Source: a virus | Length of the DNA: 64,000 nucleotides | Strand: one strand, 5' to 3' | Virus record (IMG/VR): IMGVR_UViG_3300005936_000001 | Coordinates: 62,001-126,000 of that record | Shown: in pieces, positions 33,820-40,198 of the stretch | Layout: each line of letters begins with the position of its first letter | Numbering within the stretch: the stretch's first letter is position 1 | Notes under the pieces: generated by a model | What the model was told of the DNA's origin: nothing | The model's input: only the letters and a program-made list of their open reading frames with translations | Databases searched by the model: none | Made by a program: the position numbers and the translations under genes

Positions 33820-34465
33820 AGAGAAGGCAGGGGTACAGGATCCTGATAATTATATAGTATTGAACATGGCGTCTGATTCAGTAAAAGCAGACGCCGCTAT
33901 TGTTCAGGTAGCTTATATGCTTAAAGGAGTTCTGTATAACGAATATGTTCTGGGAGGTAATGTAAGGGGCAACATGCAGTATACCGGAATATCTATCAAC
34001 AGTTATTATGCAGAGGCTGTCCTGCCCGAAGTAGTAGAAAATAAACTGGTCGGGCTTATGCAGGAGAATAACATATCCTACATAGTATACAATAATGACT
34101 GGTGGAACAGAAAGCTGATAGCCGGTAATAGTTGGGTCGGGCTGAAAGAGTACATGAACTACAAGCCCTGCCTGGCTATATCTGACTACGAATCTGTACG
34201 TAGATCTTTTGGAGAAACTCTAGCTAGTTTTAAAGGGCCTCTTAAGGACATATGCAAGCTTGTAAGTAAGAAAGCGTCTTCCGGATATCGGTGTCCTCTG
34301 AATACTAATTACGAAGACCGGCTGGGGGAAGAGTATGATTGTAAGATGGGTCCGTATACAGTGGCGGAACAGAATACGGTAATGATGGATGAAATACTAA
34401 AAAACATACTGGGAAGAACAAGTGATGAAGAGGTGTATATTCCCGGAAGAAAGGTAATGACATGA
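33794..34465 (+). CDS. Hypothetical protein
   Basis: A 223-residue protein overlapping the methyltransferase by 26 nt. The opening strand YIVLNMASDS and a YIVYNNDWWNRKL segment faintly recall a DnaQ-like exonuclease fold with catalytic acids replaced, but this is weak. It overlaps the RuvC-like gene by 4 nt. Confidence 0.55.
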   Translation: MGIIREFLKEKAGVQDPDNYIVLNMASDSVKADAAIVQVAYMLKGVLYNEYVLGGNVRGNMQYTGISINSYYAEAVLPEVVENKLVGLMQENNISYIVYNNDWWNRKLIAGNSWVGLKEYMNYKPCLAISDYESVRRSFGETLASFKGPLKDICKLVSKKASSGYRCPLNTNYEDRLGEEYDCKMGPYTVAEQNTVMMDEILKNILGRTSDEEVYIPGRKVMT

Positions 34466-34917
34466 TAATATTAGGAGTAGACCCCGGAACTACGGAATCT
34501 GGGTATGTTACGTATAATAATGAGACAGAGGAAATTTATGCATTCGGTAAAATAAGTAATGAGAGAATGCTGGGTATTGTAGAAGGTGGACAGGCTGATG
34601 TAATGGCGATAGAGACCATATGTTCGTATGGAGCCCGAGTCGGAAAAGAGACTTTTGAAACCTGTTTCTTTATAGGAAAATGTATGCAGGCTTTTAAAGG
34701 AACACACTACAGAATAAAGCGTGTCGACGAGAAAAAGTATATCTGCGGCACAGGAGCCGCTAAAGACTGTGGAATACGTCAGGAGCTACTCGATCGATTC
34801 GAACCTGACCTAATTCCGGGAAAACGACCTAAAGGTAAACTTAAAGGATTTAAGTCGGATATATATTCAGCCCTAGCTGTTGCGATAACTTGTGACGAGC
34901 AGTATCTTCGAACTTAA
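34462..34917 (+). CDS. ruvC: RuvC-like Holliday junction resolvase
   Basis: A 151-residue RNase H-fold protein. GVDPGTTESGY at the N-terminus supplies the first catalytic Asp (residue 6), MAIETICSY near residue 50 the Glu, and SDIYSALAVA near 132 the final acid. The length is typical for RuvC. It should resolve four-way junctions before packaging. Its stop overlaps the upstream box of promoter P3. Confidence 0.75.
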   Translation: MIILGVDPGTTESGYVTYNNETEEIYAFGKISNERMLGIVEGGQADVMAIETICSYGARVGKETFETCFFIGKCMQAFKGTHYRIKRVDEKKYICGTGAAKDCGIRQELLDRFEPDLIPGKRPKGKLKGFKSDIYSALAVAITCDEQYLRT

Positions 34918-34942
34918 TTTATCGCGTTTTTGTGGCATAATA
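34913..34942 (+). promoter_or_regulatory. Phage bipartite promoter P3
   Basis: CTTAATTT at 34913-34920, an 11-nt spacer ending in T5, and GTGGCATAATA at 34932-34942. It drives the ubiquitin-like conjugation operon. Confidence 0.65.
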
Positions 34943-34976
34943 GATTACTAAGATGATATAACTATCATTGTTTTTA

Positions 34977-35059
34977 GCGGATATGAGGCCGAGTATTTTT
35001 ATACAAAATGGTGGTCATGAAACAGGGTTTTGCCCAGACGGCCTGCCACCCTTATCTGC
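34977..35059 (+). ncRNA. Structured leader RNA of the ubiquitin-like operon
   Basis: GCGGATA (34977-34983) pairs with TATCTGC (35053-35059). Inside, GGTGG/CCACC encloses a GGG-TTTT-GCCC-type hairpin, and GGCC can pair with a downstream GGCC as an alternative. No reading frame is present. A leader, riboswitch or processed RNA is possible; the class is not recognised. Confidence 0.45.
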
Positions 35060-35104
35060 TTTATCTATATAAAACGAAATTAATTTTAACATAGAAAGGG
35101 ATAA

Positions 35105-36595
35105 ATGTATTTCGTAACACGAGAACAACTAGACAAACTAACTGAATTGGGCTGGGCTGGTAGCTCACCTACATTCAACATCAATGATGTGGACGGATTT
35201 CTGATACCTCGGGTAGAAGTACATCCGGTAATGGGACAGAATATAGAGTTTAATGATGAACGAACAATGTTTGAAGGTATTTCTTTTCTAAGAACAACTT
35301 TCCGGGAAAGAACCAATAATGATACTCCACAAGTAGAAGTAACGGCTGAAGAAGTAGTTCCTGATCCTCTGGAAGATATACCGCCCGTTGCACCTCCAGC
35401 CCCTAATGAGGCCGAGGTAGTAAGTGCGGGATCTGGAAGTATCACAGTACAATCATCTCCCGATAAGTGGGATGGACGTGGTCGTGAAGACTTCATAAAA
35501 GTTGTTGAAGAAGTGTTACAGGATGTATATACGAATGTATCTGTTACAGTTCCTAACGGGGATATTGAACTTCCTGAGGACTGTGAGCATGACCTGAATA
35601 TTAGAGTATGGTCTTCTCCTAAAGCAGATAGTCTGATAGGCGGAGCTGATGGTAAGTTAATTCCTCCATCAAGTCTATTCGGAAAGAAAGTAGGCTGTGA
35701 AGATCCTATGTTCCCTCTTACAGACAGTGGGGTGGGAATTAATGATCCTAAGACAGGTGTTGCAATAATGGAATATGTTAAACCGAATCATCTCTATTTT
35801 CTATGGGATGCGGTTCAGAAGCCTTCCATTTCAGCAATCACCATTTTCAGAAAATCTTTGGAGCTATTCAAAGAGCAACTGGGAACGGAGCAACTCAAGT
35901 CAGAAGTCGCTGATATCGCCAAGACCCGTGAGAAGAAAGATCGGGAAAGGCTGATAAAGTTTGTTGAGGATGTTCTTTCAGTCGAGTATAAAGGGCTGCA
36001 GGACACAATTGATAAACTTTCAAAAGAGATTGAAAAGCATCAGGGACATTTGACGCTTAAATTAAGAGATCGTACTGCAAAGATGCAGATGGTTGAAGCA
36101 GGTACATCGAATAATTTTGATGAAAGAGCTAACAAAATGATTCGTGACCTGTATTCCCAGAAGCATGTCAGAGGAGTACGGATTGTTAAGGACGGGGTAC
36201 ATATAATAACAGATACAGTATATGTTATTGACCCACGTACGAAACTTAACCACGAGGTCGGAGCTTTTCGTATTGAAGTTCCTACAGATGTTAATAAAGA
36301 AATACTAATGTTAAATACTACTCAGCAGATTACGGGATATAACTCCAGAGGGATGCATGCTCCGCATGTATTTCCTGATGGTAAACCCTGTCTGGGAGAT
36401 CTGGTGGAATCGCTCCCTCAGATCAGAGCAGCTCATAACTACAGTGCCATAGCAGCTCTGTGTATACTCTACCTCGAAAACGTTAATGTTGACGATGCCG
36501 CTGGTAAGTATGTAAACAGATGGCCTTTGGTCAAAGAGGACGGAACGGTTGTTGCTTGGAAAGACCGTGACGATAAAGATAAGGACATAATGTAA
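35105..36595 (+). CDS. E2-like ubiquitin-conjugating protein with N-terminal phage module
   Basis: A 496-residue protein. Residues 1-50 (MYFVTREQLDKLTELGW, DVDGFLIPR) are a module shared with two small genes downstream. A Pro/acidic linker leads to a middle domain and a coiled coil at about 255-330. The C-terminal domain has FRIEVPTDVN, then HAPHVFPDGKPCLGDL, matching the E2 pattern of a His-Pro-type turn before the catalytic Cys in G-x-CLG; the candidate nucleophile is Cys429. E2 proteins carry an activated ubiquitin-like protein as a thioester. Neighbouring JAB, E1 and Ubl genes make the call firm. Confidence 0.8.
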   Translation: MYFVTREQLDKLTELGWAGSSPTFNINDVDGFLIPRVEVHPVMGQNIEFNDERTMFEGISFLRTTFRERTNNDTPQVEVTAEEVVPDPLEDIPPVAPPAPNEAEVVSAGSGSITVQSSPDKWDGRGREDFIKVVEEVLQDVYTNVSVTVPNGDIELPEDCEHDLNIRVWSSPKADSLIGGADGKLIPPSSLFGKKVGCEDPMFPLTDSGVGINDPKTGVAIMEYVKPNHLYFLWDAVQKPSISAITIFRKSLELFKEQLGTEQLKSEVADIAKTREKKDRERLIKFVEDVLSVEYKGLQDTIDKLSKEIEKHQGHLTLKLRDRTAKMQMVEAGTSNNFDERANKMIRDLYSQKHVRGVRIVKDGVHIITDTVYVIDPRTKLNHEVGAFRIEVPTDVNKEILMLNTTQQITGYNSRGMHAPHVFPDGKPCLGDLVESLPQIRAAHNYSAIAALCILYLENVNVDDAAGKYVNRWPLVKEDGTVVAWKDRDDKDKDIM

Positions 36596-37741
36596 TGCCT
36601 ACAGTCGAATGGTTAAATGAAGGAATGCCCTCGGTAGTATTACTACCTGAGGTCAAAAAAGACATGGACATTATAATTAATAACTGCGATGATGAAATAG
36701 GATGGTTAGGTCTTGTACGTAAAGAAGAGGATAATGTATTTTTAGTTTATAATATATTACCTCTTCCCCAACAGGATGTTAACGGTGGAACAACCGAAAT
36801 AACTCCTGATGGACTGGCTGAATTAATGGGGGAACTTATAACTTCCGGAGATATGACAACCGATGAAGCTAATAATATTCGCCTTTGGGGGCATAAAATA
36901 TGTGACGCTGCGTAAGCAGTAGGTGAGTGCCCCGTGACTGGTAACAGTCACTAGAAAAATCTTCTCTGATTGAGGGGGAAGCCCTAACGGTAAAGCCGAG
37001 GGTAATCCTGCCGAACCTTTAAGATATTTAAAGGACGGTCAACGACTAAGCGAGAAGAACCCTACAGGTAATGCTGAGGGCCGAGCGATAGTCTGATCTC
37101 TATGGAGACATAGAGAGGTATCAGGAAACTGGATACCCGCCTACATTAGTAGGTTATTAAGTAACAGAATGTCACACATAAGCGGCGGAGTTGGTCCGTC
37201 CGGCCAGGATAACACACAGATGGAAGTATTTTCTGATAATCTTAAGGGTTCCGAAGGAGCTCTAAACAGATTCTTTATAAGATGTATCGGAAACAATAAA
37301 GGCGAATATGGGTTCGCTATTTTTCAGTATGATATAGGGCTTGCTCTCAAGGATGCCCCATGGAGTATTCAGGTAAATGAAGATGATGATCCTAAGGTAG
37401 AATACTGGAAAGGACAGATCGAGGAAAAGGTTACCAAGATGGTGTATGGTGGCCTAAAAAACGCCGCTGGGTATCACCAGGGTATGAACCAGAGTGGGAT
37501 TGGTTTTCAAGGACATGGTTCCGAGCATGGATATGGTGGTTCACCTAATGGCTATGGAAATAATGGCTATCAGGGAAGACCTGTAGGAGGAAACAATGTT
37601 CATAAGACATACCCATTGGATAATGTGGACGATGGAGTTGAAGGAGCTACTCCTTTAAAAAAAGTAGGTAAAAAGAGAAAACCAGGTCGTCCTCCTAAAA
37701 ATAAGAAGGTCGGTAAGTATTCCTTTCAGGAAATTGACTGA
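36595..37741 (+). CDS. JAB/JAMM metalloprotease gene split by a group I intron
   Basis: Exon 1 is 36595-36894 and exon 2 is 37172-37741. Joining them gives 289 residues and rebuilds a perfect JAMM site: Glu34, then His100-Ser-His102, seven residues, Ser110, two residues, Asp113. Without splicing, exon 1 ends after six missense residues at a stop. JAB proteases cleave ubiquitin-like precursors or conjugates. The C-terminal part is Gly/Tyr-rich, then Lys-rich (KKRKPGRPPKNKK), like an AT-hook. The start overlaps the E2 stop and the end overlaps the E1 start. Confidence 0.88.
36895..37171 (+). ncRNA. Group I intron (277 nt, no endonuclease gene)
   Basis: The 5' exon end GGGGCAT pairs with GTGCCCC at 36927-36933, giving the canonical U-G pair at the splice site (P1). 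The 3' end is the terminal G at 37171. GGTCAACGACTAAGCG near 37037 matches the conserved R region, and GACTA there pairs with TAGTC near 37090 to form P7. The size is typical of a minimal group I ribozyme. It contains no reading frame, so any homing endonuclease must be supplied elsewhere. Confidence 0.9.
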
Positions 37742-38430
37742 TGGGTATACCTGCCAGTATCTCCTATAATAGACAGCTATCTGTTTTTAAACCTAATTTG
37801 TTTACAAAGAAGGTTGACATAATAGGGGCTGGAGCAACAGGTTCACACGTAGCTTATTTACTCGCTAAGATGGGAGTGAAAAAGATACGTGTGTTCGATT
37901 ATGATAAGGTGGAAGAACACAATATTCCTAATCAAATGTTCCGACTGTCTGATGTAGGGAAGTACAAAGTTGACGCTCTTAAAGAGCTCATAAAACAATT
38001 GACGGAAATTGAAATAGAAGCTGTCAATGAAAAAGTGGAGACGGGTTGCGGATATGTCCCGGGGAATATTGTATTTCTCCTGACAGATACAATGTCTTCA
38101 CGTAAGGAAATTTTCACTGAATTTCTAAAGATGAAGTTCGGTGTTAATTTAATAGTAGAAACAAGAATGGGGGATGATAACGGAAGAATTTATTCTTTCG
38201 TTCCGACAATGCTTAATCAGGCAGAGAAGTGGGAGGCTACTCTATATGATGATGATACGGCGGAAGAATCTCTCTGTGGCTCTTCTGTTTCAGTAATTGC
38301 TACAGCAGTTAATATATCCACAATAGCTGTTTGGCAGATGCTGAAGCATAATAATGGAGACCCAATCGAGAACGAAATCATATACGGCATGCGGCCATAT
38401 ATGTCTATAACACAAACCTTTAAGTTATAA
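37741..38430 (+). CDS. E1-like ubiquitin-activating protein (ThiF/MoeB family)
   Basis: A 229-residue Rossmann protein. IIGAGATGSHVAYLL (residues 27-41) is the nucleotide-binding loop, DYDKVEEHNIPNQMF (53-67) the conserved acidic and Asn/Arg region, and LLTDTMSSRK follows strand 6. Cys179 in SLCGSS is a candidate for thioester formation. E1 enzymes adenylate the C-terminal Gly of a Ubl, which this operon also encodes. The compact size resembles bacterial ThiF-type E1s, not eukaryotic ones. Confidence 0.85.
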   Translation: MGIPASISYNRQLSVFKPNLFTKKVDIIGAGATGSHVAYLLAKMGVKKIRVFDYDKVEEHNIPNQMFRLSDVGKYKVDALKELIKQLTEIEIEAVNEKVETGCGYVPGNIVFLLTDTMSSRKEIFTEFLKMKFGVNLIVETRMGDDNGRIYSFVPTMLNQAEKWEATLYDDDTAEESLCGSSVSVIATAVNISTIAVWQMLKHNNGDPIENEIIYGMRPYMSITQTFKL

Positions 38431-38444
38431 CAAAGGAATAAGTA

Positions 38445-38858
38445 ATGAAACAAATCACAGTAGGAAAAGTACCAGGAACACTTTCAGAAGTAGCCGTCGA
38501 AAATGGCGCTACAGTTGCAGATGCCCTGGCAGCAGGAAACCTCGATGCAGAGGGTTTCGAAATTAAAGTCAACGGCAGTACCGCATCTTTGACAGACGAT
38601 GCTCCTGACGGCGCAAATATTTTCCTGGTCAAGCAGATCAAAGGAAATCAATGCGTAGTAACAGTTGGTAAAGTTCCTGGAACACTCTCGGAATTAGCTG
38701 TTGAATCTGGCACGACCATTGAGGCCGTACTGGAACTTGCAGATCTCGACGCCGAAGGCTTTGAGATTAAGATGAATGGTAGTACCGTATCCGAAGACAC
38801 AGCAGTTGTTGACGGTGCAAATATTTTCTTGGTCAAACAGATCAAGGGAAACAACTAG
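38445..38858 (+). CDS. Tandem ubiquitin-like protein (two beta-grasp repeats)
   Basis: A 137-residue protein made of two near-identical halves, each starting ITVGKVPGTLSE or VTVGKVPGTLSE and ending NIFLVKQIKGN. The VNGS turn and the DGANIFLV strand match ThiS/MoaD-type beta-grasp proteins. The first half runs to about residue 68, and the second ends KGNN. A C-terminal Gly followed by Asn-Asn implies trimming before activation, a job for the operon's JAB protease, which could also cut between the repeats. Preceded by an AAAGGAATAAG site and followed by a terminator. Confidence 0.85.
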   Translation: MKQITVGKVPGTLSEVAVENGATVADALAAGNLDAEGFEIKVNGSTASLTDDAPDGANIFLVKQIKGNQCVVTVGKVPGTLSELAVESGTTIEAVLELADLDAEGFEIKMNGSTVSEDTAVVDGANIFLVKQIKGNN

Positions 38859-38864
38859 TATAAC

Positions 38865-38901
38865 TGGATCCCTCTCCTCCCTTTAGAGGGATCCATTTTT
38901 T
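38865..38901 (+). terminator. Rho-independent terminator of the ubiquitin-like operon
   Basis: TGGATCCCTCT pairs with AGAGGGATCCA across a nine-base loop, followed by six T. Confidence 0.9.
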
Positions 38902-39241: not shown

Positions 39242-39610
39242 ATGGACGAAGCATTTTTTGTTTCGAATAGTATTTACGAAGAATTAAAAAAGATGGGACT
39301 TAAAAAAGAAAAAGATATTGTCCCTTTCAAAATAGAAACAGTAGACGGGGTATTAGTACCTCGGAAAAAGATCGAAGAATTAATTAAGAGAGAAGGAATA
39401 ATATTATCCAAGGCTACAACTGTGTACGAAGATATTTATGCAGTAGCCGGATACACAATCCCTAAAAGCGGGGGTATTTCGGAAGCGGTAGTTACACCTC
39501 CTGTGGAAGTATTTGATGAGGGGCAGAGGACTGATCCTTCGTTAGTGGAAAAAATGAATGATGCGATACAAGCGCTAAGTGCTGTAAGAGATTGTTTAGC
39601 AGGCGCATAA
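39242..39610 (+). CDS. Protein sharing the VDGxLVPR N-terminal module
   Basis: A 122-residue protein. Its first 50 residues (FFVSNSIYEELKKMGL, TVDGVLVPRKKIEEL) align by eye with the N-terminus of the E2-like protein, including spacing to the VDGFLIPR element. The remainder has a short linker and a C-terminal helix. It may interact with the same partner as the E2-like protein. AGGAGG-type site upstream. Confidence 0.65.
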   Translation: MDEAFFVSNSIYEELKKMGLKKEKDIVPFKIETVDGVLVPRKKIEELIKREGIILSKATTVYEDIYAVAGYTIPKSGGISEAVVTPPVEVFDEGQRTDPSLVEKMNDAIQALSAVRDCLAGA

Positions 39611-39850: not shown

Positions 39851-40198
39851 ATGGTTTTTATTTCAAATGATGATTATGAGAACATACTGAAGGACAGACA
39901 GTTTCATCAACAGGTTCTTAAAAGATATAGTTTAGATGGAGTTGACGGGTTTTTTATTTCTGATAAATCCTTCGGGTTGTACGCAGCTCTGCATTTAAGA
40001 AGTGATGAATTCAGTATATCTTATTATTCAACTGATAAGGTATTAAATATGGTTAGCAGTACAGTTAATAAGCCATCTCGATACCGTCGGCTGGAAGCCC
40101 TTATTAAGATGGCTGCGGAAAAAATAGATAACTGTCCTGATTTTATGCTGGACGAATATCTTACGGAACACCACATAGTGGACTTGCTTACGTTTTAA
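39851..40198 (+). CDS. Protein with a VDGFFIS variant of the E2 N-terminal module
   Basis: A 115-residue protein opening MVFISNDDYENIL and reaching YSLDGVDGFFISDKS near residue 38, a third copy of the module seen in the E2-like protein and the gene at 39242. The C-terminal helix is amphipathic. Function unknown. Confidence 0.6.
   Translation: MVFISNDDYENILKDRQFHQQVLKRYSLDGVDGFFISDKSFGLYAALHLRSDEFSISYYSTDKVLNMVSSTVNKPSRYRRLEALIKMAAEKIDNCPDFMLDEYLTEHHIVDLLTF

Follow-up and report, generated by a model that had tools for sequence, protein, structure and literature searches.

We analyzed a 64,000-nucleotide window of viral DNA (bases 62001-126000 of the 185,256-base IMG/VR record IMGVR_UViG_3300005936_000001, a bacterial virus; coordinates are those of the window) and identified on the plus strand, at 35105-38858, a putative gene module for ubiquitin-like (Ubl) protein conjugation. 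In order, its genes encode an E2-like protein, a JAB/JAMM protease (split into two pieces), an E1 and a tandem Ubl (Table 1). Stop and start codons overlap as TAATG at both the E2/JAB and the JAB/E1 junctions, and a gap of 14 nucleotides (nt) precedes the Ubl gene. An earlier note on this DNA, made by inspection of the letters, had claimed an E2, JAB, E1 and tandem Ubl set; the claim was borne out for the set itself, which was found again in dozens of viral contigs, far beyond chance. The JAMM residues E34, H100, H102, S110 and D113, Cys179 of E1 and Cys429 of the E2-like protein were conserved across the viral homologues. Judged from its sequence, the phage has a complete and apparently catalytically intact E1-E2-JAB-Ubl set.

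Table 1. Features of the module and its immediate surroundings, in window coordinates
Feature	Coordinates	Strand	Description
E2-like protein, 496 aa	35105..36595	+	Putative catalytic Cys429 in HAPHVFPDGKPCLG
JAB/JAMM exon 1	36595..36894	+	Codons 1-100 exactly, ends ...LWGH100; start overlaps E2 stop (TAATG)
Group I intron	36895..37171	+	277 nt, phase 0, without homing endonuclease open reading frame; Rfam RF00028
Internal guide sequence	36927..36933	+	GUGCCCC pairs with 5' exon GGGGCAU (P1); GUGA just upstream pairs with 3' exon UCAC (P10)
JAB/JAMM exon 2	37172..37741	+	Starts S101-H102-ISGGVGP-S110-GQD113
Stand-alone E1, 229 aa	37741..38430	+	ThiF-type adenylation domain, GAGATG loop; start overlaps JAB stop
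Di-Ubl, 137 aa	38445..38858	+	Beta-grasp repeats 1-68 and 69-136, each ending KQIKGN, then final N
Candidate intrinsic terminator	38875..38898	+	TCCC-TTTAGA-GGGA hairpin, then T-run TCCATTTTTT; after Ubl gene; consensus match only
RuvC-like Holliday junction resolvase	34462..34917	+	PHROG 1770, E 4.6e-11; upstream neighbour, outside the module

The JAMM protease had been noted before, but it is not one open reading frame (ORF), and the group I intron that splits it had been overlooked. The unspliced ORF at 36595-36915 reads ...RLWGH and then KICDAA followed by a stop, and the ORF at 37169-37741 begins MSHISGGVGPSGQD. The interruption falls between the codons of His100 and Ser101, that is, inside the catalytic HxH of the JAMM motif and between its two His codons. 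A covariance search matched RF00028 at 58.9 bits (gathering threshold 50) over the full model (1-253) with an E-value of 2.2e-12. The splice-site features of group I introns were all found, as the 5' exon ends in U (GGGGGCAU), P1 contains a U.G pair and the intron ends in G. The P1 (GGGGCAU/GUGCCCC) and P10 (UCAC/GUGA) helices both pair perfectly, a GACUA/UAGUC element is also present, and the intron with its flanks folds 6 standard deviations more stably than shuffled sequences (RNA folding z -6.0). Joining the exons gave a 289-aa protein with the motif H-S-H-x7-S-x2-D restored and a Gly-rich and basic tail. In an alignment of 16 proteins (exons joined), E34, H100, H102, S110 and D113 were invariant or almost invariant, the other 15 proteins being homologues with uninterrupted genes. 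The JAB family profile matched RPN11 (7.5e-7), JAMM1, CSN5 and BRCC36. Single-sequence scans of the spliced JAB against Pfam, NCBIfam, PHROG and PADLOC gave no match; since these scans were empty for the E2-like protein as well, alignments of relatives were needed for both. Translational bypassing or a frameshift across the JAB gap was rejected because the group I anatomy is complete, and an intein because of the in-frame stops.

The group I model matched nowhere else in the 185-kb genome, nor in any of 23 related loci. Comparison of the intron with other phage sequences returned short core-motif matches only, and comparison with plasmids returned none. The intron resembles other phage group I introns in its predicted self-splicing type, its insertion at a catalytic motif and its P1/P10 pairing, whereas it differs in having a JAMM protease gene as host and in being very short and without a homing endonuclease. 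It would self-splice and in this way rebuild the JAMM motif. Lying exactly between two metal-binding His codons, it would make JAB production testably dependent on splicing.

The candidate catalytic Cys429 that had been proposed for the E2-like ORF is present, in HAPHVFPDGKPCLGD. The protein has an N-terminal domain, a long coiled coil (~261-334) and a C-terminal E2-type core (~350-480), and an iterative search located this C-terminal domain in ~50 ORFs. P-C-G was invariant in 24 aligned viral homologues, and in most of them the Cys is preceded by HPH or a variant motif. When the domain was compared by hhalign with five canonical E2s, the probability was 88.7 (P 2.6e-6) with HPH/HPN and the Cys in register; the JAB, E1 and Ubl controls gave about 0.1. 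All 19 PDB chains matched by the E2 profile were E2s, but the best E-value was only 0.21, and Pfam UQ_con was matched by 2 of the 24 family members (best 1.7e-4). The AlphaFold (AF2) model of the core had a predicted local distance difference test (pLDDT) score of 94.1 and showed four strands, then the Cys loop, then helices, which is the E2 order; the full-length model was poor outside the C-terminal domain. A Foldseek search of viral models returned two phage proteins with no assigned function (probability 1.00, TM ~0.6, E 0.01-0.02). We regard the E2 assignment of the 35105-36595 product as no more than likely.

Two side observations concern this protein family. In L011 (3757-5118), L013 and L014, a second E2-like gene adjoins the first, and the one of L011 has another residue at the position of the catalytic Cys (GYPVAG), as an inactive E2 partner would. 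In the window, the products of two small downstream genes (39242-39610 and 39851-40198) share with the E2 N-terminus a weak N-terminal domain with the pattern F-V-[ST]...VDG-F/V (BLASTP E 4e-4 and 1e-4, respectively), which is perhaps an adaptor domain.

A ThiF-type E1 with a GAGATG loop had also been claimed, and both features were recovered: the loop starts at residue 29, and a profile search found the adenylation site as a Pfam ThiF domain (E 2.2e-20). The protein contains the GxGxxG motif and a conserved Cys; Cys179 was invariant in seven divergent phage E1s. Its profile matched MccB (best), UBA5, UBA1, MoeB, Cap2 and BubCD in PDB. The E1 has only two Cys (C103 and C179), so that the two CxxC zinc motifs of MoeB/ThiF are absent.

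The two Ubl repeats, of 68 aa each, are identical at 45 of 68 positions, and the protein matched Pfam ThiS (3.4e-6, above the Pfam cut-off) and SAMP2 (7.9e-6). The protein had been described as ending in KGN, which holds for each of the two repeats, while the ORF itself ends KGNN. Homologues with KGN joints occurred as a mono-Ubl (L011), as di-Ubls (L013 and L014) and as a tri-Ubl (L012), and the precursors with two or three Ubls are similar to polyubiquitin genes. Among 42 repeats, the tail was GG in 27, GN in 11 and GA in 3. Twelve of the 42 end exactly at the stop codon, and the rest are in tandem or carry short extensions, which could be removed by JAB. The Gly-Asn tail is conserved instead of Gly-Gly in the window Ubl and in the Ubls of L011-L020. 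Since several of these end exactly at Asn, either G or N could be the mature tail in the GN clade. MccB, the best structural match of the E1, is an enzyme that activates a C-terminal Asn.

To follow the module in other viruses, we searched IMG/VR with a three-sequence E1 profile, which found 123 relatives, of which 80 were kept. Among the 49 loci of at least 9 kb, a JAMM protein was counted in 46, an E2 domain in 39, a Ubl in 36 and everything in 26, counts that depend on the hidden Markov models and thresholds used. The commonest order in the viral relatives was Ubl-E2-JAB-E1. In named phages, the E1 matched Flavobacterium Fpv phages, Steigviridae including crAss001, and large Xanthomonas and Erwinia phages; tblastn with the E2 and with the Ubl gave no matches in named phages. 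In those Steigviridae and Fpv loci that we inspected, the order is candidate Ubl, CLG/CIG-motif protein, JAMM protein and ThiF. Profile comparison of the crAss, Xanthomonas and L009 candidate Ubls with the window Ubl gave no significant link (P 0.003-0.025), and because they could not be tied to it they were left as candidates. No JAMM gene was found in the 14.5 kb read of the Xanthomonas phage, where a small protein ends in SGG. On these comparisons, the module is a viral gene family. In addition, 24 bacterial and archaeal contigs from metagenome-assembled genomes (L091-L114, mostly Clostridia) harbour E1 and E2-like genes, in nearly every case together with JAB. Versions that lack JAB were seen in L004 (Xanthomonas phage PhiXhv-12), L023 and L025, with E2-like proteins that are very long, bear a Cys cluster or are fused; the small candidate Ubl of L004 ends directly in GG.

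The earlier note had placed the operon under one phage promoter and in a late-type region; the first statement found no support, and the second was wrong. No sigma70-type site was found in 34918-35104, and there was no excess over shuffled sequences. The module follows genes for SbcCD, helicases, DnaB, primase, polymerase, UvsX, DNA methyltransferases and the RuvC-like resolvase. In L022 it lies inside RuvC-SbcD-[Ubl-E2-JAB-E1]-SbcC-sliding clamp. Its neighbours include SbcC and a helicase in L012, a helicase and an exonuclease in L016, ThyX in L011 and a polymerase in L017. A primase-helicase was near the module in ~40 loci, and Sak4 and ERF in others. It lies near a primase and a uracil-DNA glycosylase (UDG) in Steigviridae, near a toprim protein and a UDG in the Flavobacterium phage, and near a ligase and a topoisomerase in the Xanthomonas phage. 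These replication and repair neighbours, shared by several unrelated phages, contradict the late-gene reading and suggest that the module acts during DNA replication. They are in keeping with a part in replication and repair or in early takeover.

We consider it probable that the module is a phage-encoded Ubl-conjugation system. It would be expressed together with the replication genes, and its JAB would both mature the di-Ubl and recycle the tags. JAB would cut the di-Ubl at its KGN joints to give two modifiers. The E1 would adenylate the Ubl C-terminus and then hold it as a thioester on Cys179, from which the E2 would take it onto Cys429 and attach it to lysines of target proteins. JAB would additionally remove the tag from targets. 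From the conserved gene neighbourhood, we suggest, as less likely than not, that the module may act alongside the phage replication and recombination machinery. Replication and repair proteins might conceivably be regulated in this way, by analogy with SUMO and ubiquitin on eukaryotic PCNA, or host nucleases and defence factors that attack replicating phage DNA might be tagged.

Several observations weigh against this interpretation. By itself the window E2 matched no E2 model in the single-sequence Pfam, NCBIfam, PHROG and PADLOC scans. Foldseek searches of PDB with the core and full-length models returned no E2/UBC match. This outcome counts partly against the earlier note, which had named the lack of an E2 fold around Cys429 as refuting its claim, although profile-profile comparison aligned the domain with canonical E2s, active site in register. 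The neighbourhood argument is weak in itself, as replication genes abound in the early regions of phages, and in L013 and L014 long opposite-strand genes lie beside the module. Some relatives are so diverged that their functions may differ.

Other explanations were weighed against a conjugation system of the replication programme. The earlier note had drawn a comparison with Bil, the ISG15-like anti-phage system BilABCD, in which a two-domain Ubl, E2, JAB and E1 share one operon and JAB matures the Ubl (PMC11354881). The module could be a Bil-like defence carried by the phage, which would act in superinfection exclusion by tagging competing phages on tail or capsid proteins, in the manner of host Bil. 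The resemblance in composition stood, as the four components, the tandem Ubl and the predicted maturation by JAB agree with what is reported for BilA-D (PMC11354881), and Ubl-E2-JAB-E1 is the commonest order in the viral relatives. The features that define Bil did not. In Bil, the E1 combines two adenylation domains, one inactive and one active, with a Cys domain of 80 aa, and the E2 carries a CEHH motif (PMC11354881). Here the E1 is a single adenylation domain of 229 aa, and in the E2 an HPH-type motif stands upstream of the Cys, with E at +6 and no His at +8 or +13, positions not conserved in relatives. Furthermore, the window module is phage-borne, lies beside replication genes and has KGN joints in its Ubl; PADLOC models gave generic E1-E2 hits only; and the position by primase and UDG is conserved in several Steigviridae genera, which gives the look of a core gene and not of mobile cargo. 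A Bil-like role is rather unlikely. Self-modification of the virion or of structural precursors, of the kind put forward in the earlier note, would account for a stable core module, and among the tail genes of lambda a JAB is already combined with a Ubl (Iyer 2006, PMC1779556). In this virus and most of the relatives looked at, however, the module sits in a replication block away from identified structural genes, and we regard this alternative as improbable.

A sulfur-carrier pathway, in which the Ubl would be thiocarboxylated for base or cofactor modification without protein conjugation, would fit the scores of the E1 and Ubl to ThiF, ThiS and SAMP2, and some sulfur-carrier operons include a JAB (PMC1779556). 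The E2-like protein with an invariant Cys in most loci and the tandem Ubl argue against it, as do the lack of a CxxC zinc site in the E1 and an operon in which no rhodanese or sulfurtransferase was found; we consider it highly improbable. It is harder still to believe that the JAB gene is dead, through a frameshift or decay, or that sequencing created the split. The intron is known from the sequence of one assembled virus only, but the full-length RF00028 match, the exact P1 with its U.G pair and the exact P10 speak for a spliced intron, and so do a phase-0 joint that rebuilds the invariant H-S-H and flanking exons that retain all catalytic residues.

Bacterial operons with Ubl, JAB, E1 and E2, polyUbl included, were described by Iyer et al. 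2006 (PMC1779556). Type 6d comprises Ubl, JAB, E1, E2 and a helical protein, and type 6e a polyUbl (PMC1779556). The window module is like types 6d and 6e and the PRTRC cassettes in its separate Ubl, JAB, E1 and E2 genes, and like 6e also in its tandem Ubls. It differs from these systems in that no helical protein was identified and the classical upstream His is present in the E2, from 6e in that the E2s of that type lack activity and its E1s are mostly fusions with JAB, and from PRTRC in that the window E1 scored 51.8 bits to PRTRC_ThiF, below the curated cut-off of 144.75. The E1 Rossmann domain is related to Cap2 and BubCD of type II CBASS (Cap2/Cap3) and Bub, whereas here no nucleotidyl cyclase was seen, E1 and E2 are unfused and the module has its own Ubl. 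The closest phage counterparts are the Steigviridae and Flavobacterium Fpv loci, with homologous E1s and an adjacent JAMM protease and ThiF; these two genes are annotated singly, as metalloprotease or thiamine biosynthesis, and the CLG/CIG-motif protein and the Ubl alongside them are candidates only, as no significant profile link was found for either. A phage-encoded E1-E2-JAB-Ubl set was not described in the open-licence literature found, to which our coverage is limited, and ThiF, JAB and a phage Ubl system are unmentioned in Yutin 2021, the Crassvirales review, the crAss001 paper and the 2021 jumbo-phage review.

Bacterial Ubl conjugation is known mainly as an anti-phage defence. We tentatively suggest that several unrelated groups of tailed phages, gut phages of the crAss001 type among them, might run their own Ubl conjugation within the replication programme and tag proteins of replication or repair or host nucleases, with the modifiers of one clade coming from a polyubiquitin-like, Gly-Asn-ending precursor and with JAB expression in the present virus also requiring RNA self-splicing. 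If this is true, bacterial viruses themselves use protein tagging, with a full set in a core position beside replication genes. The module is partly present in the culturable crAss001 (Bacteroides intestinalis), which offers a direct route to substrates. As a separate observation, a reverse-transcriptase gene family was common to eight module loci (L009, L027, L029, L032, L044, L052, L062 and L082), and its L082 member matched Pfam RVT_1 at 1.7e-15.

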